A DNA stretch of 30,623 bases from a virus. The stretch is taken from positions 1-30,623 of IMG/VR virus record IMGVR_UViG_3300028025_006240. One strand, written 5' to 3'. Positions 9,373 to 30,623 of this stretch are shown here, in pieces. Positions within the stretch are counted from its first letter, which is position 1; each line of letters starts with the position of its first letter. The notes under the pieces were generated by a model that searched no databases, was not told where the DNA came from, and was given only the letters and a program-made list of their open reading frames with translations. The position numbers and the translations under genes are program-made.

Positions 9373-12213
9373 ATGAATCTAATCGATAAAATTAAGAAGC
9401 TAAGCGAAACAACAACCTCACCAGAAGTAAAGCAGATCTGCGAAAACTTCCTGTCTGGTAACGTAGTTAGCGCTGAAGCTCACCAGGCTTTGATGGAATC
9501 AATCACATCAACAGAGCAAGATTCTAGCACAGAGATCAATGCATCAAACCAAGATCTTAAAACTGCTATGAGAAACAATGAACTAGCCCAATCAAAAAGC
9601 TATGCTGAAAAACTCATGGAAAGCTGGAAAGGCTTGGATTACATGGGAAGAGCAGTTACACCTAAAGGTGTTTATGGTTCTTATAAAGATGGATTTGAGC
9701 AAAATGCCAAACCAGAAAAAGAATCATCTGAGGTTCTTTCTTTATTAGAAAGCCATTCAGAGAAAGATGCACACGTTTCTGCACTTTTCAAATCTCAAGA
9801 AGTTGAAAATTTAGGAATTCGTGAATCTTTGGACAATATGTCTAAATCTGGTATCGGAGAGCATCATGCAGTAAGAAGCTTGATTACTAAATACAAGCAT
9901 CTTTTGGAAGGAAATAGACTTCCTGAGTATATTTTAGCTGAAAGCTTTATCCCAGAATTTTCTTCTTTCGATTGGGATTCTACTGTTAAGTCTGGAATCG
10001 AAAAGATCGCTGAGAATTGCGCTTCATTGAGAAATGAGATCGAAGTATCAAAAGCAATCTACCAATTAAAAGTATCTGATCCAACTAATTTCTACAAAGT
10101 AGTAGTTGAATCTCTTAATAGCTGGTTAATTTCTGACGAAAAATCGTTAGGACTTTTATCACGTGATTTGGAAAGATGGCAATTCAATCCAGTTGTTAGA
10201 AACTTAATCCATACTTTAAAAGTTAATGAGTCTAAAGCTGGTGTATTGAACATCACAAAGAAACAAGGTGAATCTGAAGTAAAAAGCATTTACACTCCTG
10301 TTCTTACAAGAGACAATAAATTGGTTTTCCAAATGTCTGGTTATGTTTTCGAAGCTGATGAAACCGGTGTTAGAAGACTTAATGCATCTCAAATGGAATC
10401 ACTTCCTCAAGACTTCATTTCTCTTTTAGAAAGCTTTAATCAACCTTTTATCAAAGTAAATGGAACTGGAGTTAATTTCTACGTTGGAAAAACTGGAATT
10501 AAAATTCAGGAATCAAATGATGGAGCATCAGTTATTTTGAACGGATCACCTTTGAGATTTAAAGATTCTGTTGAATTGGGACGTATTCTACACGTAGAAC
10601 TTGCATCTCAAAGCGGTGTAAATCCTTCAGCAATAACTAAAGACGTTATCAATGTTTACGAGTCATTCGATAAAATCGTTGAATTGGACATTGCTAAAAA
10701 TATCTCTTCTAAATTATACGAAGGTGTTTATGTTAACCTTTTGAAATGGAAGAATCAAATCTATGTTCAGAGAGTAAATGAAGGAATGAAAGAAAATTCA
10801 TTCTTGAAAACTTCTGGATCTCAAGCTTTGAAAGTTGTTCATGATCTATTGAAATTCGATATTTCAGAGGGTCTAAGCCAATTCTTAGAGGGAGAGAACA
10901 AAATGAAAGCAATCATGATCAACGACCGCAAAAAGGTTCTTGATAATATGACAGTAATAGAAGAGCAAGTTAAGAAACTTGAAACCTTAATGGCTTCTAA
11001 TTCTCTTTACGAATCTTCAGAGCAGATCAAAACTGCTTACAACCAATTGAAAAAAGAGCTAGACGTTCTTAAAGAGAAATGGTCAGCTATCAATTCTGAA
11101 TTGGAGCTATTCGAAAATGGATATGAAGAAATCCTATTGGACGAAGGAAAATACGCAATTGGTGATGCAGTTCGTGTTAAAGAATCTGGAGATTCCGGTA
11201 AGGTTATCTCAATAGATTCTTCTTCTGGATCTTATGTAATTCTAACAGACGCTGGTAAAACTGGTGAATACAGAATGGATGAGATTGAAGACATGTCATC
11301 AGCTATAAAAAGAGCTGAAGATGAGAATGAATTAGCAGCTAACGAAAACCCTAAGTCTAACCCAGAGCAAACCGATGATAACAACGGCGAAGAAGAAGTG
11401 AAAGAAGCTCAACAGCCAACTTTCGCTGCTGCTCCTGGTAAGGAAAAAGCTACCAAAGAGGATACCACTATCGAGAAGAAAGCTAAATCTTTAATGGCAC
11501 AAGCACCTAAAAGCATAGCTGCTCAAGCGGAAAGATCTAAAAACGACGTTAAGGACGAAAAAGCAGCTCAATTGGCTACTGCACCTGACGGAAAGAATCC
11601 AGATGTAGATTTCGAAGCAAATAAAGAAATTGGATACAACTTAAGAGAATCTAATGAATTGTCTAAAGAGAATCCAAATTTAGCAGATGCTCCAGCAAGC
11701 AAAACACAAGAAGCTGCTGCTAAAAAAGATATCGAGGATTTATCCAATCATAATCTGGCTGATGCTCCAGGAGACGCACACAGCAAGAAGATGGAAGTAG
11801 CTGACGGAATGGGATATAACTTAGCAGAGGCTTCAGCAGTTGCTACAGACGCATCTCAAATGGCAGTTGCACCATCTGCAGCATCACAGGACAAATCAGG
11901 AGCTAAAGACATTGAAGATCTTAAGGATCAAAATTTAGCTGAAGCACCTGGTACAGAAGGTGATATAGACATCAAAGTAAATGCTGAGATGGGATATAAC
12001 CTAGATGAAAAGGCTGATATCGAAAAAGCAGATCAGCAATTGGCTGAAGCGCCAGAAGCATCTTCTCAAGATAAATCAGGAGCTAAAGACATTGAAGATC
12101 TTAAGGATCATAACTTAGCTACAGCGCCTGGTACAGAAGGTGATATAGACATCAAAGTAAATGCTGAGATGGGATATAATCTAGACGAAAGCGACGACGT
12201 AAAAAAAAACTAA
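9373..12213 (+). CDS. large repeat-containing virion or head-internal protein
   Basis: I do not recognise a family for this 946-residue protein. Residues 1-500 are mostly helical with no motif I can name. Residues about 510-580 look coiled coil. Residues about 592-640 contain a KOW-like segment (GDAVRVKESGDSGKV). From about residue 678 the chain is low-complexity with recurring LA-x-AP motifs (LATAP, LADAP, LAEAP) and a 60-residue super-repeat whose last copies are nearly identical in DNA. Some repeats contain L-A-E before A, which fits the T4 prohead protease consensus (I/L-x-E before A/G). The frame stops at TAA directly after A AAA AAC; the -1 frame continues the repeat. Tandem late-type promoters suggest an abundant virion protein. 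Confidence 0.7.
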   Translation: MNLIDKIKKLSETTTSPEVKQICENFLSGNVVSAEAHQALMESITSTEQDSSTEINASNQDLKTAMRNNELAQSKSYAEKLMESWKGLDYMGRAVTPKGVYGSYKDGFEQNAKPEKESSEVLSLLESHSEKDAHVSALFKSQEVENLGIRESLDNMSKSGIGEHHAVRSLITKYKHLLEGNRLPEYILAESFIPEFSSFDWDSTVKSGIEKIAENCASLRNEIEVSKAIYQLKVSDPTNFYKVVVESLNSWLISDEKSLGLLSRDLERWQFNPVVRNLIHTLKVNESKAGVLNITKKQGESEVKSIYTPVLTRDNKLVFQMSGYVFEADETGVRRLNASQMESLPQDFISLLESFNQPFIKVNGTGVNFYVGKTGIKIQESNDGASVILNGSPLRFKDSVELGRILHVELASQSGVNPSAITKDVINVYESFDKIVELDIAKNISSKLYEGVYVNLLKWKNQIYVQRVNEGMKENSFLKTSGSQALKVVHDLLKFDISEGLSQFLEGENKMKAIMINDRKKVLDNMTVIEEQVKKLETLMASNSLYESSEQIKTAYNQLKKELDVLKEKWSAINSELELFENGYEEILLDEGKYAIGDAVRVKESGDSGKVISIDSSSGSYVILTDAGKTGEYRMDEIEDMSSAIKRAEDENELAANENPKSNPEQTDDNNGEEEVKEAQQPTFAAAPGKEKATKEDTTIEKKAKSLMAQAPKSIAAQAERSKNDVKDEKAAQLATAPDGKNPDVDFEANKEIGYNLRESNELSKENPNLADAPASKTQEAAAKKDIEDLSNHNLADAPGDAHSKKMEVADGMGYNLAEASAVATDASQMAVAPSAASQDKSGAKDIEDLKDQNLAEAPGTEGDIDIKVNAEMGYNLDEKADIEKADQQLAEAPEASSQDKSGAKDIEDLKDHNLATAPGTEGDIDIKVNAEMGYNLDESDDVKKN
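11881..12188 (+). repeat. 180-nt-period direct repeat in the 3' end of the large gene
   Basis: The segment 11881-12008 recurs at 12061-12188 with an offset of exactly 180 nt (60 codons). Long blocks are identical, including AGCTAAAGACATTGAAGATC and a stretch of about 53 nt starting CCTGGTACAGAAGG. Older, diverged copies lie upstream. The frame is kept, so this is expansion of a protein repeat by recent duplication. Confidence 0.85.
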
Positions 12214-13908: not shown

Positions 13909-15531
13909 ATGGCAGGTTTCGTTGATGATTCAAAACAAGCACCGATCATACAAAGGATTAGGGATAGCGTAAAAAGCTTATCCTCTTTTGGTATGAGGTA
14001 TAACGATCTGGTGATTAAAAATTCCCAGGCGATCGGAGCAACAGAAGCGATATTCTTGAAAAAGAATCCAATCGAAGACGAGACAACTCTTTACGCTTTG
14101 GCAAAACAAGATACGCAGACAAAACAGTACATCTCGTATTTCGATAAGGACTATAAGGGTAAAAGAGAATTTCTCAGGAAATTTGCTTTAAATTCAGAGA
14201 TAGATTATCTACTGGATCTTGTTGCTGATGAGGCAATTACCTACGATTCTAAACACTTCTTTGCATATCCATCTTTTCTTAATTTTACTGATGCTAAAAA
14301 ACAATTGTTGGATGACATCAATACTACTTACAATAAGCTATATGATGTATGGGGTTTCAATGACGATATAAGTGCTTGGCAATTATTTAGACAGTTTCTG
14401 GTAGAAGGATTTCTAGCATTTGAAATGGTCTATGACGATAAGGGAAAGGAAATAATAGGTTTTAAAGAATTAGATCCTACAACCTTACAGCCTAGCGTAG
14501 AAAAGCAATTGGATGGAACCTTTTTAAACATCTGGGTTCAGTATCCAGATGACGATAAGAAAAGAAGGGTACTCTACGATTCACAGATCATTTATATTTC
14601 TTATGCTAAAGGAAACGCAGTTTCTAGAATAAGCTACGTTGAGAGATTGATCAGACCTTATAACGTATTGAGAATAATGGAATATACCAGAATTATCTGG
14701 TCTGTTATGAATGCATCTTTCAGGTTAAAGATGACTGTACCGATCGGTTCTAAATCTCCACAAAAAGCAATGCAGACCTTGGGAGAACTAATGTCTATCT
14801 ATAAGGAGGATATCAGATTTGACAATGACTCTGGAGAACTATTTGTAGATGGCAGGCCTAAAATACAGTTCTATAAGAACTATATGATGCCTTCTGGCAC
14901 AAACGGTACACCAACCATTGAACCAGTAAACATTGCAGGGCCTAATCTAAGTGACACAACACCATTACAATATTTTTGGGAAAAGTTCATAGAGGAATCT
15001 AAGGTTCCAGTTTCGAGATTTAGCGGTCCAGATTTTACCCCACAGGGAGCTTATGTAAATGGAGCAGAAGGACTAGATAAGGACGAGATTAGATTTGGTA
15101 AGTTCATCAATCGATTAAGATCTAATTTCCAAGATATGATGGTTAAACCTCTTTGGATTCAACTGTGCGAAAAATACCCGGCTTTAAAGAAAGACTTTGC
15201 TTTTAAAAGTCAGCTTGGTATAAGCTACGTAACTGAAAATCCATTTAGACTGAACCAGGAGATAGAAGTAATAACTAAGAAAAAAGATGGAGTTGTTGCA
15301 ATGGCTAGTCTATTGGATGATTTCGAAAGACCTTACTTCTCTCTTGATTTTCTAGTGAAGAATATGCTTGGCCTATCTGAGGATGATCTAAAAGAAAATA
15401 GAAGCACCAAGGAAAAAATAGCTAAGGAAAAAGCTAAGTTAGAAAAAGAGGGAGCAGAAACAACAGCTGCACAAGCAGCAGCCGCTCCAGCTGCAGAGCC
15501 AGCAACACCAACTGAAACAGCACCAGAATAA
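13909..15531 (+). CDS. portal vertex protein, gp20-like, copy 1
   Basis: This 540-residue protein should form the ring at the DNA-entry vertex, and T4 gp20 (524 residues) is the model. Features include INSEIDYLLDLVADEAIT-type helices near residue 100, LFRQFLVEGFLAFEMVYDD, KELDPTTLQP, a long helix with RIMEYTRIIWSVMNASFRLK, GRPKIQFYKNY, and DEIRFGKFINRLRSNFQDMM, the last typical of gp20. The last 35 residues are Ala/Glu/Pro-rich and probably disordered. Its TAA shares one base with the ATG of a second portal-like gene, so the pair is translationally coupled. Confidence 0.85.
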   Translation: MAGFVDDSKQAPIIQRIRDSVKSLSSFGMRYNDLVIKNSQAIGATEAIFLKKNPIEDETTLYALAKQDTQTKQYISYFDKDYKGKREFLRKFALNSEIDYLLDLVADEAITYDSKHFFAYPSFLNFTDAKKQLLDDINTTYNKLYDVWGFNDDISAWQLFRQFLVEGFLAFEMVYDDKGKEIIGFKELDPTTLQPSVEKQLDGTFLNIWVQYPDDDKKRRVLYDSQIIYISYAKGNAVSRISYVERLIRPYNVLRIMEYTRIIWSVMNASFRLKMTVPIGSKSPQKAMQTLGELMSIYKEDIRFDNDSGELFVDGRPKIQFYKNYMMPSGTNGTPTIEPVNIAGPNLSDTTPLQYFWEKFIEESKVPVSRFSGPDFTPQGAYVNGAEGLDKDEIRFGKFINRLRSNFQDMMVKPLWIQLCEKYPALKKDFAFKSQLGISYVTENPFRLNQEIEVITKKKDGVVAMASLLDDFERPYFSLDFLVKNMLGLSEDDLKENRSTKEKIAKEKAKLEKEGAETTAAQAAAAPAAEPATPTETAPE

Positions 15532-17126
15532 TGGCAGGATTTGTAGACCAAAACACAGGAAGAGGTGGCGTATTCAATAGAATATACCAAACATTGACAC
15601 GAGTTGGAAAACTCGGTATGCAATATGATGACATGGTCATTAACAACTCCCAAGCTATCGGAAGGGTAGAATCCCAATTCTATAATCAGGAGGATACAGG
15701 ATTTACCGACAATGAGGCATTCAGATGGACGGTTGGATACCAGGACATCAAAACAAGAAAGTATATTGCTTATTTCGATAAGGATTATGGAAGTAAGGTA
15801 AATTTTCTTAGAAAGTTTTCTCTTAATGGTGAGATAGAATTTATCCTTGATACTATATGCGACGAAGCTATAGTTTCTGATGATAGAAATTTCATCGCAT
15901 ATCCCACTTTAGAGGGTGTAGCAATGAAGGAAAAGGTCCTTAATTCTATTAGCGATAATTTCAAAAAACTATACATGCTTCTGGGATTTCAGAACGGAAT
16001 CACGGCATGGCAATATTTTAGACAATTCCTGGTTGAAGGATTCCTTGCTTTTGAGATTGTCTATGATGATAAAGCTAAAAATATAGTTGGATTTAAAGAA
16101 CTTGATCCTACATCTCTAGAACCACAAACGCAAAAGAATGCCGATGGGTCCTTCCAGCAACATTGGGTACAATACCCTAATGATAACAATATGAGAAGGG
16201 TACTTACCAACGAGCAGGTTATCTACATATCCTATGCTAAAGGTAATACGATCTCTAGGGTTTCTTACGTTGAAAAATTAATACGCTCGTATAATATTTT
16301 GCGTATAATGGAGAATACCAGAATTATCTGGAACGTAATGAATGCATCATACCGTTTGAAGTTCATTATACCGGTTGGTAACCAATCCCCGCAAAAGGCT
16401 TTAAATACGCTTGGCCAATTAATGTCCAATTATAAAGAGGAAATCGAGATAGATGACAACTCAGGAGAAATGACTATCAACGGAAGACCTAAGATCCAGT
16501 TCTATAAGAATTATCTTTTCCCAGACAAGAATGGCCAGACACCTCAGATCGATTCTTTAAATCCTAGTGGTCCTGATTTTAACGTAATGGAGAGCGTTAC
16601 TTACTTCTATAATAGACTTAAGATGGATTCCAAAATACCTTATGCAAGATTTGCATTTAGAGGCGCACCAGCATCTAATTATAGTGTAGGTATAGACCAG
16701 TTAGAAAGAGACGAAATCAGATACGAGAAATTCCTTTCCAGACACAGAGCTACGTTCCAAGAGATAATGATGAAGCCTTTGTATATCCAGATGATATTGG
16801 ATTATCCTGAATTGGCAAAGGATAGACAGTTTAAATCTAATCTGGGCATAACTTACAATAAGGAAAATCAATTTCAGGATTTTGTTAAGCTAGCTAACCT
16901 CACTAAAAGGATCACCTTTATTAATGGTATGGCTGAATTGAAACAAAAGGTTGGAGAGGAAGAGCAATCATACTTTAGTAAGGATTTCTTGGTTAGAAGA
17001 TATCTTGGTTTGTCTCCTGATGAGTATAAGCAGAATAATGATTATCTCAAGGCAGAAAAGATAGTAGCAGAGGAAGAAGCTAAGAAGAAAGCAAAAGCTG
17101 AAAAAGCTGAAGGATCTCCTGAATAG
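15531..17126 (+). CDS. portal vertex protein, gp20-like, copy 2
   Basis: This 531-residue protein aligns with copy 1 along its whole length. Shared blocks include the MAGFVD start, IAYFDKDYGSKVNFLRKFSL, FRQFLVEGFLAFEIVYDD, KELDPTSLEP, IYISYAKGN, RIMENTRIIWNVMNASYRLK, GRPKIQFYKNY and DEIRYEKFLSRHR. Both copies keep the core motifs, so neither looks decayed. Its C-terminal tail is Lys/Glu/Ala-rich, unlike the Ala/Pro tail of copy 1. It could form a mixed ring with copy 1, a separate ring, or an alternative portal; sequence alone does not say. Confidence 0.85.
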   Translation: MAGFVDQNTGRGGVFNRIYQTLTRVGKLGMQYDDMVINNSQAIGRVESQFYNQEDTGFTDNEAFRWTVGYQDIKTRKYIAYFDKDYGSKVNFLRKFSLNGEIEFILDTICDEAIVSDDRNFIAYPTLEGVAMKEKVLNSISDNFKKLYMLLGFQNGITAWQYFRQFLVEGFLAFEIVYDDKAKNIVGFKELDPTSLEPQTQKNADGSFQQHWVQYPNDNNMRRVLTNEQVIYISYAKGNTISRVSYVEKLIRSYNILRIMENTRIIWNVMNASYRLKFIIPVGNQSPQKALNTLGQLMSNYKEEIEIDDNSGEMTINGRPKIQFYKNYLFPDKNGQTPQIDSLNPSGPDFNVMESVTYFYNRLKMDSKIPYARFAFRGAPASNYSVGIDQLERDEIRYEKFLSRHRATFQEIMMKPLYIQMILDYPELAKDRQFKSNLGITYNKENQFQDFVKLANLTKRITFINGMAELKQKVGEEEQSYFSKDFLVRRYLGLSPDEYKQNNDYLKAEKIVAEEEAKKKAKAEKAEGSPE

Positions 17127-25537: not shown

Positions 25538-25563
25538 GCACTCAAATAATCCAAGAGAGTGCT
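25537..25563 (+). promoter_or_regulatory. hairpin enclosing the GTG start of the nucleotidyltransferase
   Basis: AGCACTC (25537-25543) is exactly complementary to GAGTGCT (25557-25563), with a 13-nt loop. The GTG start (25559-25561) lies in the 3' arm. Transcripts arriving from upstream would fold it; transcripts begun at the adjacent GATATATA box would lack most of the 5' arm. This matches the known T4 arrangement that keeps late genes silent on early messages. Confidence 0.5.
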
Positions 25564-26341
25564 GTACAGATACAATGAATTTATTAGCGAGGGAAGAATT
25601 TCCGAGTTTTACAACGACGAATTAAACCCCAAATTCTGGACCAAGAAGAAAAACCAAAAGGGTGAAACCGAATGGGTTTTAGATAGAAATGTCCGCAAGA
25701 AGCTATTAATCATAGCTAAAGATTTTTATTCAAAATTTGAAGATACGATTGGCAAGCCTAAGATTGTAGATATACAATTAACGGGTTCTTTGTCCAATTA
25801 CAACTATACGAAGTATTCAGATCTCGATGTGCATGTCTTGGTCGACTTTGATAAAATAGACGCACCCAAGAAGGTTTTAAAAAGTGCAATAGACGGGATT
25901 AGATTCATTTGGAATCTGAGACACGACATCAGAATCAGAGGTCATGAGGTTGAAACCTATATGCAGGATTCTGAGGAGCCTCATGTAGCAAGCGGACTTT
26001 ATTCACTAATGGACGATGAATGGATTAAAAAGCCAACATTCGATCCACCATCCGTTGATCCTGCAGACGTAGATAAAAAGTACGAAGGAATAGCATCGGA
26101 TATAAATAAATTCGAGGAGAAATTGGTTAAGCAAAATACCACTCCTTCTAATGCCAAAGAGCTTTATGATAAAGCTGGTAAATTAAAAGAAAAGATTATG
26201 AAAATGAGAAAAGAGGGTCTTCAGAAAGAAGGAGAATTCTCTGTGGGTAATCTTGCTTTTAAGAAGCTTAGGAATGAGGGATATATAGAGAAATTGATTG
26301 ATACTATCAGTCAGGCTTACGATAAAATTTATTCAGAATAA
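25559..26341 (+). CDS. nucleotidyltransferase-fold protein with a capsid-targeting-like leader
   Basis: This 260-residue protein has a nucleotidyltransferase core: VDIQLTGSLSNYNYTKYSD followed by LDVHVLVDF, the Gly-Ser and Asp-x-Asp elements that bind metal and nucleotide. A helical, Lys/Glu-rich C-terminal region follows. Its substrate is unknown. The N-terminus MLYRYNEFISEGRI closely resembles the capsid-targeting leader of T4 internal proteins (MKTYQEFIAEARV in IPIII), and Ile9-Ser10-Glu11 before Gly12 fits the gp21 protease consensus. I infer that it may be packaged in the prohead and cleaved after Glu11. GTG 25559 is the only start that gives this leader. It lies two genes upstream of the protease. 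Confidence 0.75.
   Translation: MLYRYNEFISEGRISEFYNDELNPKFWTKKKNQKGETEWVLDRNVRKKLLIIAKDFYSKFEDTIGKPKIVDIQLTGSLSNYNYTKYSDLDVHVLVDFDKIDAPKKVLKSAIDGIRFIWNLRHDIRIRGHEVETYMQDSEEPHVASGLYSLMDDEWIKKPTFDPPSVDPADVDKKYEGIASDINKFEEKLVKQNTTPSNAKELYDKAGKLKEKIMKMRKEGLQKEGEFSVGNLAFKKLRNEGYIEKLIDTISQAYDKIYSE
26280..26287 (+). promoter_or_regulatory. candidate late promoter inside a gene end (GATATATA)
   Basis: An exact GATATATA lies within the last 20 codons of the nucleotidyltransferase gene, 55 nt before the ATG at 26343. It could give the large downstream gene its own late transcript. Confidence 0.4.
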
Positions 26342-26342
26342 G

Positions 26343-28817
26343 ATGATATTATTATTCCCATCGAAGGGCAGCATAACAGAGGGGCAAGCACTCCCGTTAA
26401 TACAGGTTCCATTAAACGCTATTAAAGGCGGACAGGACGTCGAGCTAAATGATTTTCAATGGTGGGCTAAAACATCAGAATGGCAGGAATGGCTTAAAGC
26501 AAATCCAAGATCTTGGCAAGCTGAATCCGAAAATTTTGAGGATTATCCGCACCATTCCGATTTTAGAAGACTTTCTAATTATTCCGATTTCAAAAAACTA
26601 CTTGAGTCTGAAGGAATATACGAAGCGGATGATTCTACCGAATCTACGCCAGAGCAGACAACTGCTATGCTAAAATTTATCCAAGCTAAGGAAAATCTTT
26701 CTAAAGCGGGAAAGATAGATCTTAGCGTTGATTTTGGTACTGTTAAGGACGGTGAGGAACTAGCTTGGTTCCTTTCACATACTGGATCTGATGGATCAGA
26801 TATCTCCAATTCAGAGATGGCCTATAAGATATCTAAGAAGTATGCTTCAACCGGACAATTCTCTATTTACGAACTAACCGAGATACAACCTATAGGTATA
26901 AAGGTTGATGACGGAACATTACTCCAACAAATATATGAGCAAACCCTAAAATGGGCTAAGATAGCTTCAGTTGGGGCTGCTACAATATTTGGTGGCTATA
27001 TTGCGATCAAATCTGTTGGAGGCCTTATAAATCTTGTAAAACTAAATTCTAGGGTTGCAAAACTAGGGGGTAAAACAAAATCTATTAGAAAACTAATCAA
27101 TGTTAAAAATTTCCTAAAAACCGGAGCAAGCTCTGCTTTCAAAGGACTAAAGAACACTGGAAAATTAATAGGAGGATTAGTTAAAGGGGTTGGCACAGGA
27201 GGTAAATGGGCTAGACAGGCATTTAAATTTTCTAAGGCAGCTGGCGCAGGAACTTCTAAAGCTGTGTCTAGAGGTGTTAGTGCATTTGCTAGAGGATTTG
27301 GTAAAAGTGCATCTAAAGCATTGCCAAAAACATTAGGTGAGGCTATTCCTGTTGTTGGATGGGTAATAGCAATAGGAGACGTAGCACAGCAAACATATAA
27401 CTGGTTTTCTGGAAATCAAGCACCAAGATTTGGTGAGGTCGATACTTTTGCAAAAGACGTATTCGAACCAGGTAAAATAGCACCAGGCGAGATTATTACC
27501 GTGTGCTGGACACAAGAGGGATCTAATTCTAATTCTTGGGTGGGATTCCTTCCTATGTCTGCTGACGATACCAGAACAACAATGGATCTTGCAAAAGTTG
27601 GAAATTTCTCTGGATCATCTCTCTTTATACTGCTTAACATCGGATCTAAGGGAATGGGCACTGAGTTTGCAAAGAACGATGTAACATTTATACTTTTCCC
27701 TGAATCTTCGAAGTTTGAAACCGGTGTTCTAGATAACGACGATCTTAGCTTTAAAGTAGTTGGTGTACAGAATGCAAAAGAGTCAGCTATGTCCATGTTC
27801 TTCCACGGAACTTGTCCATGGGGTGAATTCTTGTCATCGTATGATGGAGCATCTGCAACACTTGTAAATATAGATCCGGGAGCTCCTGCAGATTTTAAAT
27901 TCAATTTCCTAACTGAAACCACTAGGGTTAATGTTAAGGGAACATTGGTTGATCCCGATTTTGTTGATCTGCAAAATCCAGATTCTGGACTTAATAAAAT
28001 GGTTGGTAAAGCTTTCGATGAAACATCGCCTGAAATCGATAGTGATGAAAGCGGTGAAGAAACAGAGGAGGAGGTATCCGATTCCCTCAAATATTCTGGT
28101 AAAGTTCTTTCCTTTAACGAATTCAATAATCCGATCTTTGAAGCTACAGAAGAAAAGGAATCAATGGATATCGAATTGACTCCAGAGAATGTTGCAATCT
28201 ATAGAGTCGTTGAAATCAATAACGCTGACGAAAACGCTAAAACCGAAACCCCTAAATTTGAGTACTTTGTTATTCCAGCAGAGCCTTCCACATACAATGC
28301 TAGCGAAGGATCTGAAATAGATGTAGCATCTGATGAGATTTCTTTGGAAGACACAAGAATGGGATTTGCCCCAATAATACCTGCTGTTCAAAAAGCAGAG
28401 ATTGAGCAAGACGAAGTTGAAGTACAGGCAGCACCTTCTTTTGATGATACCCCGGAGGTTGAGGAAGTAACTTCTACCATAGTGGTACCAGAGGATGAGG
28501 TTAAATTCAAATACAAAGAAGATAAAGAAAAGGTTAAAGATATTAAGAGAGGTGGATTTAATCTTCTTAAATCTCTTACCACTGAAGAGGAAAGAGATGA
28601 GTTAGGAATAGGTAAATGGAATGAGTTAGATGTTATAAAAGTGAAAGGTAACGTCGAGGATAATAAGCCTCGCATGATTAAACTTAGAGAAAAAGGTGAA
28701 GGTGGAACACTTATTCCGGACGGTGAAAAACTTAAATTCACACCTGCAGACGGTAATAAATACGACTTAGCCCTCTCTATTTTCAACAGAATGAAAGATC
28801 GGGTGAAGAATCAATAA
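26343..28817 (+). CDS. large multi-domain virion or ejection protein
   Basis: I do not recognise a family for this 824-residue protein. Residues 1-200 are mixed, with Trp-rich WWAKTSEWQEW near 40. Residues about 200-355 are rich in Gly, Ala, Lys and hydrophobics and end in LGEAIPVVGWVIAIGD, like membrane-active segments of toxins and phage ejection proteins. About 360-570 looks beta-rich, and the last 250 residues are acidic, then charged. Two sites fit I/L-x-E before A/G: Ile11-Thr12-Glu13/Gly14 and Ile598-Phe599-Glu600/Ala601. The second follows FNEF, which resembles the T4 targeting leader. ATG 26343 lies just after the upstream stop; an ATG at 26298 would overlap that gene. Confidence 0.6.
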   Translation: MILLFPSKGSITEGQALPLIQVPLNAIKGGQDVELNDFQWWAKTSEWQEWLKANPRSWQAESENFEDYPHHSDFRRLSNYSDFKKLLESEGIYEADDSTESTPEQTTAMLKFIQAKENLSKAGKIDLSVDFGTVKDGEELAWFLSHTGSDGSDISNSEMAYKISKKYASTGQFSIYELTEIQPIGIKVDDGTLLQQIYEQTLKWAKIASVGAATIFGGYIAIKSVGGLINLVKLNSRVAKLGGKTKSIRKLINVKNFLKTGASSAFKGLKNTGKLIGGLVKGVGTGGKWARQAFKFSKAAGAGTSKAVSRGVSAFARGFGKSASKALPKTLGEAIPVVGWVIAIGDVAQQTYNWFSGNQAPRFGEVDTFAKDVFEPGKIAPGEIITVCWTQEGSNSNSWVGFLPMSADDTRTTMDLAKVGNFSGSSLFILLNIGSKGMGTEFAKNDVTFILFPESSKFETGVLDNDDLSFKVVGVQNAKESAMSMFFHGTCPWGEFLSSYDGASATLVNIDPGAPADFKFNFLTETTRVNVKGTLVDPDFVDLQNPDSGLNKMVGKAFDETSPEIDSDESGEETEEEVSDSLKYSGKVLSFNEFNNPIFEATEEKESMDIELTPENVAIYRVVEINNADENAKTETPKFEYFVIPAEPSTYNASEGSEIDVASDEISLEDTRMGFAPIIPAVQKAEIEQDEVEVQAAPSFDDTPEVEEVTSTIVVPEDEVKFKYKEDKEKVKDIKRGGFNLLKSLTTEEERDELGIGKWNELDVIKVKGNVEDNKPRMIKLREKGEGGTLIPDGEKLKFTPADGNKYDLALSIFNRMKDRVKNQ

Positions 28818-28843: not shown

Positions 28844-28869
28844 GTTGAACATCAAAATAAGTGTTTGTA

Positions 28870-30623
28870 GTGAATAACAACAGTCTAAACGAACAATTAG
28901 TATTCATCCTTGAAAAACAGGATTCTGTACTAGAAGCCAAAAAAGGATCTTCTGATGACGTAGTCCTTGCTGGAACTGCAGCTGTCTTTGGAGAAGAGAA
29001 CAGTAATCATAGAATCTATGAAGAGTCTGAGTACTTGCCACACCTAGATTATTTGCAAGAGAAAATCAAGCAAAAAAGACTAGTAGGTGAACTTGATCAC
29101 CCAGAAAAGTTTGACGTGTCCTTAAAGAACATCTCTCACGTAATCGAATCTTTGGATTACGACAAGGATAAAAGAAAACTTAACATCAAAGTAAGATTGC
29201 TTGATACACCAGCAGGTAAAATAGCTAAAAGCTTAGTTGAAGCAGGAATTCCTATTTCTATTTCATCTAGAGCAGCTGGTAACGTTGGTCCTGATAAGAA
29301 AGTTCAGATCAAGAAAATATTTACTTATGACCTTGTTGCTGATCCTGGATTCAAAAATGCACAGCTAGAAAGAGTTTACGAAAGTGCTGGATATAGCTAT
29401 GATGAATTCCAAAATTTGAAGAGATCAAGCGTAATTGATAACCTACATCTAATTAACGAGAACTTTGGATTAGGAAATGATTCAGATACGAAGATATATA
29501 GTGTAGAAAACAACGAAGAGTTTTCAAAGTTAATCGCACAAGACAAAATAAAAACAGCAAAAATGGATAACAACAAGGAATTCGTTACTGCAGAAGAGCT
29601 TAACAAATATTCAGTTTATCTGAAAGAGCAAATGAAAGCGATGAGGAATGAAATTTCCGAATTGAGATCTACAGCTCAACCAGCTCCAGCAGTAGTTACG
29701 GAATCAAATCATGACACAGAAGTACACGGACGTGTTGCTAAATTGGAAAAGTATTGCGAATACTTGGCAGAAAGTCTAGATAACGCTATTAAGTATGGCG
29801 AATATTTGGGCAAAAATCTTGATGATAGCATCGCTTATGCTAAGTATCTGGCTGAAAATTTGGACAAGTCTATTGATTACCAAAAATATTTGGCAGAAAA
29901 CGTAGATAAGTCTATTAGCTACGCAGAGTATGTTGCAGAAAACGTGGATAAAAACATCGAATACAGCAAATATCTTGCTGAAAAATTGGATAACAACATC
30001 TCTTATTCTGAGTATGTTGCAGAAAACCTAGACCAATCAATTTCTTATTCAGAGTATTTGGCTGAGAACGTTGATAAGGGTATTGCTTACTCTGAGTATC
30101 TTGCAGAGAAAGTAAACCAAGGTATTTCTTACACTGAATATGTTGCAGAGAATTTGAACAAAGGTATTTCTTATAGCGAATACATTGCAGAGAATTTGAA
30201 CAAAGGTTTAGCATATTCTGAGTATTTGGCAGAAAAATTAGATTCTTCTATCAAATATTCTGAGTATATCGCAGAATCTGTTGCAACAGAAGGTGAAGTT
30301 GCTCTAAACGAGCAAGCAAAAGATCAAGTTGAACTTGCAGCTGGTGCTGATTTAAACGAATCAGGATTTGCAGGTAACTACGAAGATCTTGGATTTAAAA
30401 TTGACAAGCTAATCGAATCAGTTAATACACAGAAGACTGAAAGTTTGATAAAAGAAGCTGAATCTAAAATTTCAGCAAATGCCGGGACACAAAAGGCGAC
30501 GAATGAATCTCAAGAAGTTGAAGTAAACGAAAACTCTACAGGTTTAAAATTCATCGATGAAATGCCAGAGCAATTCCGTCCTATCTGGGAAGGTTTAAAT
30601 GAAGGTCAAAAAGGATCTATCAT
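28870..30623 (+). CDS. prohead protease (gp21-like) fused to a repeat scaffold; 3' end outside window
   Basis: At least 584 residues are present and the frame is open at the window end. Residues 1 to about 215 match the T4 gp21 prohead protease (T4, 212 residues): NSNHRIYE, LVGELDHPEKF with the catalytic-type His77, SISSRAAGN with Ser132/Ser133, and YDLVADPGF. Residues about 232-290 are coiled coil. Residues 295 to about 470 hold thirteen 14-residue repeats (Y-S-E-Y-L-A-E-N-L-D-K-S-I-x). An acidic region follows. T4 encodes protease and scaffold (gp22) separately. An in-frame ATG at 29563 with a GATATATA 62 nt upstream could express the scaffold alone. No ATG precedes the protease domain; GTG 28870 or GTG 28861 must serve. 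Confidence 0.82.
   Translation, partial: MNNNSLNEQLVFILEKQDSVLEAKKGSSDDVVLAGTAAVFGEENSNHRIYEESEYLPHLDYLQEKIKQKRLVGELDHPEKFDVSLKNISHVIESLDYDKDKRKLNIKVRLLDTPAGKIAKSLVEAGIPISISSRAAGNVGPDKKVQIKKIFTYDLVADPGFKNAQLERVYESAGYSYDEFQNLKRSSVIDNLHLINENFGLGNDSDTKIYSVENNEEFSKLIAQDKIKTAKMDNNKEFVTAEELNKYSVYLKEQMKAMRNEISELRSTAQPAPAVVTESNHDTEVHGRVAKLEKYCEYLAESLDNAIKYGEYLGKNLDDSIAYAKYLAENLDKSIDYQKYLAENVDKSISYAEYVAENVDKNIEYSKYLAEKLDNNISYSEYVAENLDQSISYSEYLAENVDKGIAYSEYLAEKVNQGISYTEYVAENLNKGISYSEYIAENLNKGLAYSEYLAEKLDSSIKYSEYIAESVATEGEVALNEQAKDQVELAAGADLNESGFAGNYEDLGFKIDKLIESVNTQKTESLIKEAESKISANAGTQKATNESQEVEVNENSTGLKFIDEMPEQFRPIWEGLNEGQKGSI
29493..29500 (+). promoter_or_regulatory. candidate internal late promoter (GATATATA)
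   Basis: An exact GATATATA lies inside the protease-scaffold gene, 62 nt before the in-frame ATG at 29563 (MDNNKEFVTAEEL). That ATG is placed exactly where the protease part ends, so this may drive a separate scaffold protein. Confidence 0.4.
29752..30282 (+). repeat. 42-nt tandem protein-coding repeat (14 residues, 13 units)
   Basis: Tyr codons that open each unit fall every 42 nt from 29752 to 30256. Twelve full units and one partial unit read Y-x-E-Y-(L/V/I)-A-E-(N/K)-(L/V)-(D/N)-x-x-I-x. The DNA of units is diverged while the peptide is conserved, so selection acts on the protein. Fourteen residues equal two heptads, fitting a long regular coiled coil or helical rod. Confidence 0.92.

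Follow-up and report, generated by a model that had tools for sequence, protein, structure and literature searches.

A nucleotidyltransferase with a predicted capsid-targeting leader in a T4-like phage, and the same leader motif on many proteins of its relatives

The nucleotidyltransferase (NTase) encoded at positions 25559-26341 of a 30,623-nucleotide virus sequence (IMG/VR record IMGVR_UViG_3300028025_006240, unclassified; hereafter the window) is likely to be packaged in the phage head and processed there. Packaging and trimming are supported by the enrichment of its N-terminal motif at protein N-termini in related phages, by a bias toward Ala, Ser, or Gly after the Glu of the motif, by a homolog detected in purified virions and by scaffold repeats with the same motif. 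The gene and the 2 genes downstream of it, with all of the features described within them, are located on the plus strand.

The NTase gene has a GTG start codon and encodes a protein of 260 amino acids that reads MLYRYNEFISEGRISEFYNDELNPKFW..., with the N-terminus MLYRYNEFISE/GRISEFYNDELNPKFW, where the slash marks the predicted cut here and below. The start is well fixed, since an in-frame stop codon is located 4 codons upstream (25547-25549), only one codon separates the upstream stop from the GTG in an ortholog that is 79% identical (L003), and a GTG or ATG start codon is found at the equivalent position in the orthologs. In T4, 10 residues suffice for targeting to the capsid, with residues 4 and 7 serving in targeting and residues 8 and 10 in processing, and the protease gp21 cuts after L/I-X-E (PMC9026906). 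All 4 determinants were found in the window protein, shifted by one residue, such that the predicted leader (residues 1-11, 25559-25591) contains 2 aromatic residues 3 positions apart, Y5 and F8, followed by the processing residues I9 and E11. The sequence I9-S10-E11 is followed by G12, as noted in the first-pass annotation, which places the cut predicted for the prohead protease at the Glu11-Gly12 bond (25589-25594). The T4 internal-protein start MKTYQEFIAEA quoted in that annotation could be read from both ipII and ipIII, with the cut after MKTYQEFIAE. Its demand for an E/A or E/G junction was however too strict, since the published rule is L/I-X-E only (PMC9026906) and close orthologs of the NTase have K or N after the Glu; we replaced it by [ILV]xE with a preference for A, S, or G. 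In an AlphaFold2 model, the NTase domain was predicted with confidence (pLDDT 91), whereas residues 1-8 had pLDDT values below 50 and the first strand started at residue 13, so that the predicted cut would fall just outside the fold.

The mature protein, residues 12-260 (25592-26341, including the stop codon), is a predicted NTase of the Pol-beta superfamily, and this part of the earlier annotation was borne out by a match to phrog_36119 (E = 8e-42), a family to which no function had been assigned, by the AlphaFold2 model and by catalytic residues that are invariant in 63 orthologs. The catalytic motif G76-S77...S87-D88-L-D90 (25784-25828) and the third acidic residue E132 (25952-25954) together make up the Pol-beta signature G[SG]...DxD plus a third acidic residue. 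The NTP_transf_2 profile scored 18.4 bits in the window protein, which is under the cut-off, and exceeded the cut-off in relatives in which the domain is fused to others. Comparisons of the model to PDB structures gave weak matches (TM about 0.24), and the Foldseek and HMM matches were likewise all weak (best E = 3e-4; DrrA, E = 0.01), the nearest being aminoglycoside adenylyltransferases and MNT/CdnC. These were generic Pol-beta NTase matches and were dropped as a guide to the substrate, as was SidM_N (E = 8e-4), the top-ranked Pfam profile, which was under the cut-off and reflects the common active-site motif only. The family shares the GS-x9/10-DxD site, and the arrangement of an NTase domain with helices after it, with AAD(9), AadA, ANT, the MNT antitoxins and the adenylyltransferase domain of DrrA/SidM, but differs from them in its own conserved C-terminal motif, GEFS.GNLAFK.LRN. 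A search for an NTase ortholog in T4 found none, and T4 genetics can therefore not give the function of the enzyme.

The NTase gene is part of a T4-like head module. The window contains genes for tail-tube-like proteins, 2 adjoining portal paralogs, DNA-repair and replication genes, and then genes for an Fpg-like glycosylase, a PolB-like exonuclease, the NTase, a protein of 824 amino acids (26343-28817) and a gp21/S77-type prohead protease with a scaffold-like tail (28861-30623), which runs off the end of the window. The NTase had been described as located two genes before the protease, and a single gene indeed lies between them. The protease was identified by matches to PF03420 (E = 2.6e-7), PF20034 (E = 6e-7), and phrog_207 (E = 2e-31). 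In a contig that is 99% identical (L002), the gene for the 657-amino-acid protease is followed directly by the gene for the major capsid protein (MCP), and no gene for a separate scaffold protein intervenes. The 2 portal paralogs of the gp20 type (13909-15531 and 15531-17126) are 50% identical over 504 residues; duplication of the portal gene is unusual in a T4-like phage. Upstream of the portal genes is a gene for a protein of 946 amino acids (9373-12213) with the N-terminus MNLIDKIKKLSE and with C-terminal repeats, DIEDLKDHNLAEAPG ... EMGYNLDE, that contain several L-A-E/A sites; a PHROG search gave no match to it and a Pfam search one below the threshold only, and it may be an internal head protein that undergoes extensive processing.

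The 824-amino-acid protein, which had no match in Pfam and PHROG searches, has orthologs at the same place in 6 relatives. In an otherwise variable linker it contains an internal leader-like site, SFNEFNNPIFE/A (residues 590-600, 28110-28142), which resembles the N-terminus of gp15 of cyanophage S-CREM2, a protein detected in virions. Aromatic residues in some form and [ILV]xE followed by A, G, or K were present at this site in all 7 aligned orthologs, and the F-x-x-F pair was kept in 6 of the 7, with G003 having DFLKE/A only.

The tail of the protease contains 13 tandem repeats of 14 residues (residues 298-466, encoded by 42-nucleotide tandem repeats at 29752-30297), with the consensus YSEYLAENLDKGIS (YSEYLAEN..), and 12 of these contain the leader motif [FY]xx[FYW][ILMV]xE. 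The same repeats were found in the proteases of all same-lineage contigs and in uncultured phages with genomes of 630-735 kb. A position weight matrix built from the scaffold repeats alone gave the NTase leader a score of 23.0, compared with 18.7 for the 99.9% quantile of internal segments. With this matrix, 4.9% of the N-termini scored above the internal 99% quantile, whereas the mean for 60 column-permuted control matrices was 1.0% and the maximum 2.8%. The presence of one motif in both the leader and the protease tail suggests that cargo proteins dock on the scaffold; the leader may take a place in the scaffold as one helix resembling a repeat, and the protease may cut both.

To quantify the motif elsewhere, the strict pattern [FY]xx[FYW][ILMV]xE within the first 20 residues was compared with a background of internal 20-amino-acid segments. 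In a set of 673 proteins from the window and 9 contigs of the same lineage, from which the protease tails had been removed, the strict motif was present in 18 N-termini compared with 26 of 10,211 internal segments (odds ratio 10.8, p = 3e-11), and a relaxed motif with variable spacing in 81 of 673 compared with 207 of 7,193 (p = 3e-23), where both p-values are optimistic because the contigs are related and 2 of them overlap. At the background rate of 0.25%, about 0.1 chance match would be expected among the approximately 34 proteins of the window. The search of relatives for the same leader on other genes, proposed in the first-pass annotation, gave a yet stronger result in LR756501 (L158-L194), an uncultured phage of 735 kb, for which the pattern had already been fixed: 53 of 822 N-termini contained the strict motif compared with 39 of 8,757 internal segments (odds ratio 15, p = 4e-33), among them the phage's own NTase (MLKYNSFIKE). 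The Glu was followed by Ala, Ser, or Gly in 29 of these 53 leaders, compared with 8.1 expected (3.6-fold, p = 4e-11), as would be expected if proteolysis took place at this position. In a Pfam scan that covered 52 of the leader proteins, we identified PPK2, methyltransferase, DeoC/LacD aldolase, and radical-SAM domains, with most of the proteins having no match; by sequence, these proteins make up a candidate list of virion cargo.

The strict leader was found in none of the proteins in the negative controls Molly (0 of 167), Cr30 (0 of 172), and the first 50 kb of T5 (0 of 66). Molly had no match to the protease and an NTase with no leader, and the NTase of Cr30 has no strict leader. In the positive control, T4, the pattern [FY]xx[FYW][ILMFV]xE was found at the N-termini of ipII, ipIII, 61.1, and 61.4, and internally at the maturation site of gp23, FGSFLTE/A. 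Gene 61.1 (NC_000866, 18966-19130) encodes 54 amino acids and starts with MKTFKEFIKED, nearly the leader of the internal proteins, which makes its product a candidate for a further internal protein. In T4, the leader is known from a small number of internal proteins only, and the collection of papers that we searched contained none on the leader in cyanophages or huge phages.

Orthologs of the NTase were identified in the 630-735-kb uncultured phages, Lak phages, Maribacter phages, cluster C cyanophages, and Caulobacter phage Cr30, as well as in many IMG/VR contigs. Among close but diverged orthologs (L003, L005, L007, L024-L031) the leader recurred with a drifted sequence, examples being MLYRFHQYINE/K, MDPVKSFSDFLFE/N, MELVKKFNDYFLLE/K, and MKHLKPYNQFLNE/G. 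In 77 nonredundant orthologs, the strict leader was found in 11, the relaxed leader in 19 and at least [ILVMF]xE in 48, with a few more missed because of mis-called starts. Across the wider family the leader has a patchy distribution, occurring in about 25% to 30% of the 77 orthologs, and a leader conserved family-wide was ruled out by a clade (L032-L052) in which the protein starts directly at the domain. Since near relatives keep a drifting leader whereas the wider family is patchy, the leader is an appended module rather than part of the enzyme.

Other arrangements were also observed. In L032 (5947-7026), with no N-terminal leader, the segment ESFKTFFE is located between the NTase domain and an extra C-terminal domain, and may mark an internal cut; the L034-L052 proteins are similar in having an NTase domain with no N-terminal leader. 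The NTase orthologs in L063-L065 contain an extra basic segment at the N-terminus (of the type CVKKVQKQGK...AYAIC in L064 and L065) ahead of an SFKQYFE-type motif. Large fusions were found in L102 (1450-5058), L103 (3-2840), and L092 (4480-7062); that in L102 has cytidylyltransferase-like and Zn_protease-like domains before the NTase, and both L102 and L103 contain a segment, EKTDGQNL or EKLDGQNL, that by eye is apparently ligase-like. Genes of the S-CREM2 gp154 type or TagD-like genes are located near the NTase gene in cyanophages and Cr30, but a cytidylyltransferase as a recurrent partner was rejected, as a homology search placed one near a minority of the loci only.

The proteome of CsCl-purified virions of Synechococcus phage S-CREM2 includes a full-length ortholog of the NTase, ORF156 (gp156, 126012-126725; 33% identity, E = 4e-40), for which 6 unique peptides gave a coverage of 15.2% (PMC10665884, Table 3). 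The authors of that study considered contamination possible for the virion-associated enzymes, but the single-stranded DNA-binding protein and ribonucleotide reductase are absent from their table (PMC10665884), and the lack of such abundant replication proteins argues against gross contamination. The ortholog has the same catalytic residues as the window NTase and differs from it in its reduced leader, MKKLISE/L, which contains the processing half only and no aromatic pair. Leaders were present on other enzymes detected in the virions, namely a SAM hydrolase (MKDFDSFLEE), an APH kinase (MKRFDAFLTE), and a cytidylyltransferase (MKNFSSFLTE/A), and Cas9 (gp12, L104 7704-10313) has the leader-like RFASFMAE/A near its N-terminus, which suggests that this protein is packaged. 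Overall, the motif was found in 5 of 52 detected and 2 of 167 undetected proteins (p = 0.009), a post hoc association, since the pattern was written after looking at that protein list.

A less probable alternative is that the NTase is packaged and trimmed but acts in the head or its assembly, by regulating the scaffold or protease or by modifying head proteins or DNA ends, and that its ejection is incidental. The NTase gene is located beside the protease and MCP genes throughout the clade of the window, the scaffold repeats contain the same motif, and no host target is known, all of which would fit such a role. In cyanophages, Cr30, and Molly, however, the gene is located away from the head genes, and the diversity of the leader-bearing cargo, from PPK2, methyltransferase, radical-SAM, and aldolase proteins in LR756501 to the SAM hydrolase, kinase, and Cas9 of S-CREM2, fits a delivery route better than assembly.

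It is improbable that the leader is an uncleaved N-terminal helix for docking on the scaffold or for localization, with no tie to packaging in the virion. The residue after the Glu varies in close orthologs (K, N, D) and some orthologs have the aromatic pair alone or [IL]xE alone, as such a helix would allow, but the enrichment of A, S, or G in the LR756501 leaders, the retention of [ILV]xE while the spacing to the aromatic residues changes, and the virion-associated homolog in S-CREM2 all speak for cleavage and packaging. That the NTase is an ordinary cytoplasmic enzyme whose N-terminus resembles the T4 leader by chance is highly improbable, since, even though the motif is short and most of the distant orthologs lack it, the match expected by chance in the window is about 0.1, the leader recurs in diverged close orthologs, and it is strongly enriched in relatives and absent from relatives in which the NTase has no leader.

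The claim that the N-terminus is a capsid-targeting leader of the T4 type, including a site for the prohead protease, was supported by the enrichment and the A/S/G bias, the disordered N-terminus, the occurrence on many unrelated genes and the virion homolog. For packaging and delivery of the NTase, we infer the following order of events. During head assembly, the Y5/F8 pair would dock the enzyme on a scaffold core made up of the helical repeat tail of the protease, in which the same pattern takes the form Y-x-x-Y-[LVI]-A-E. A cut after Glu11 by the gp21-like protease would then leave the mature enzyme, starting at Gly12, loose in the filled head. By the precedent of T4, the mature enzyme would most likely be ejected into the host with the DNA and would there, at an early stage of infection, attach a nucleotide to a host molecule. 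A role as a putative early takeover or anti-defense effector, as proposed in the first-pass annotation, is plausible.

The predicted system resembles that of the T4 internal proteins IPI, IPII, and IPIII, which are processed by gp21, in its short N-terminal leader with aromatic residues 3 apart followed by aliphatic-x-Glu, in an S77 prohead protease encoded beside the portal and MCP genes, and in sharing its motif with the cleavage site of the T4 MCP. It differs in that the cargo is an NTase, for which no T4 homolog was found, in that the leader is present on dozens of genes in relatives, in that the scaffold is a tail of leader-motif repeats fused to the protease and in that the spacing from the aromatic residues to the cut varies. 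The predicted delivery of the window NTase is also similar to that of T4 Alt and the "polyvalent proteins," which are enzymes delivered with the genome and among whose predicted protein-modifying domains are Pol-beta NTases (PMC5512222). Unlike these, the window NTase is a single-domain protein, with multidomain fusions found in its relatives L102, L103, and L092.

Because the same kind of tag is found on dozens of unrelated proteins in relatives, the virus particles of this phage family probably carry many enzymes as cargo. Whether the huge T4-like phages have a general head-delivery code is, in our estimate, evenly balanced. In such a code, a seven-residue pattern that is also present in a 14-residue scaffold repeat, and that is located at the N-terminus of at least 6% of the proteins, would draw dozens of enzymes, including the window NTase, into the head, where they would be cut free to be delivered with the genome. 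The published virion proteome of S-CREM2 fits, with its SAM hydrolase, kinase, cytidylyltransferase, and Cas9 carrying such leaders. Provided that the leader is readable from sequence, it would become possible to predict which proteins uncultured huge phages carry in their virions, and the 53 candidates in one 735-kb genome, most of them with no assigned function, would narrow down the enzymes that arrive in the host ahead of any phage gene expression, which is where early anti-defense functions are expected.
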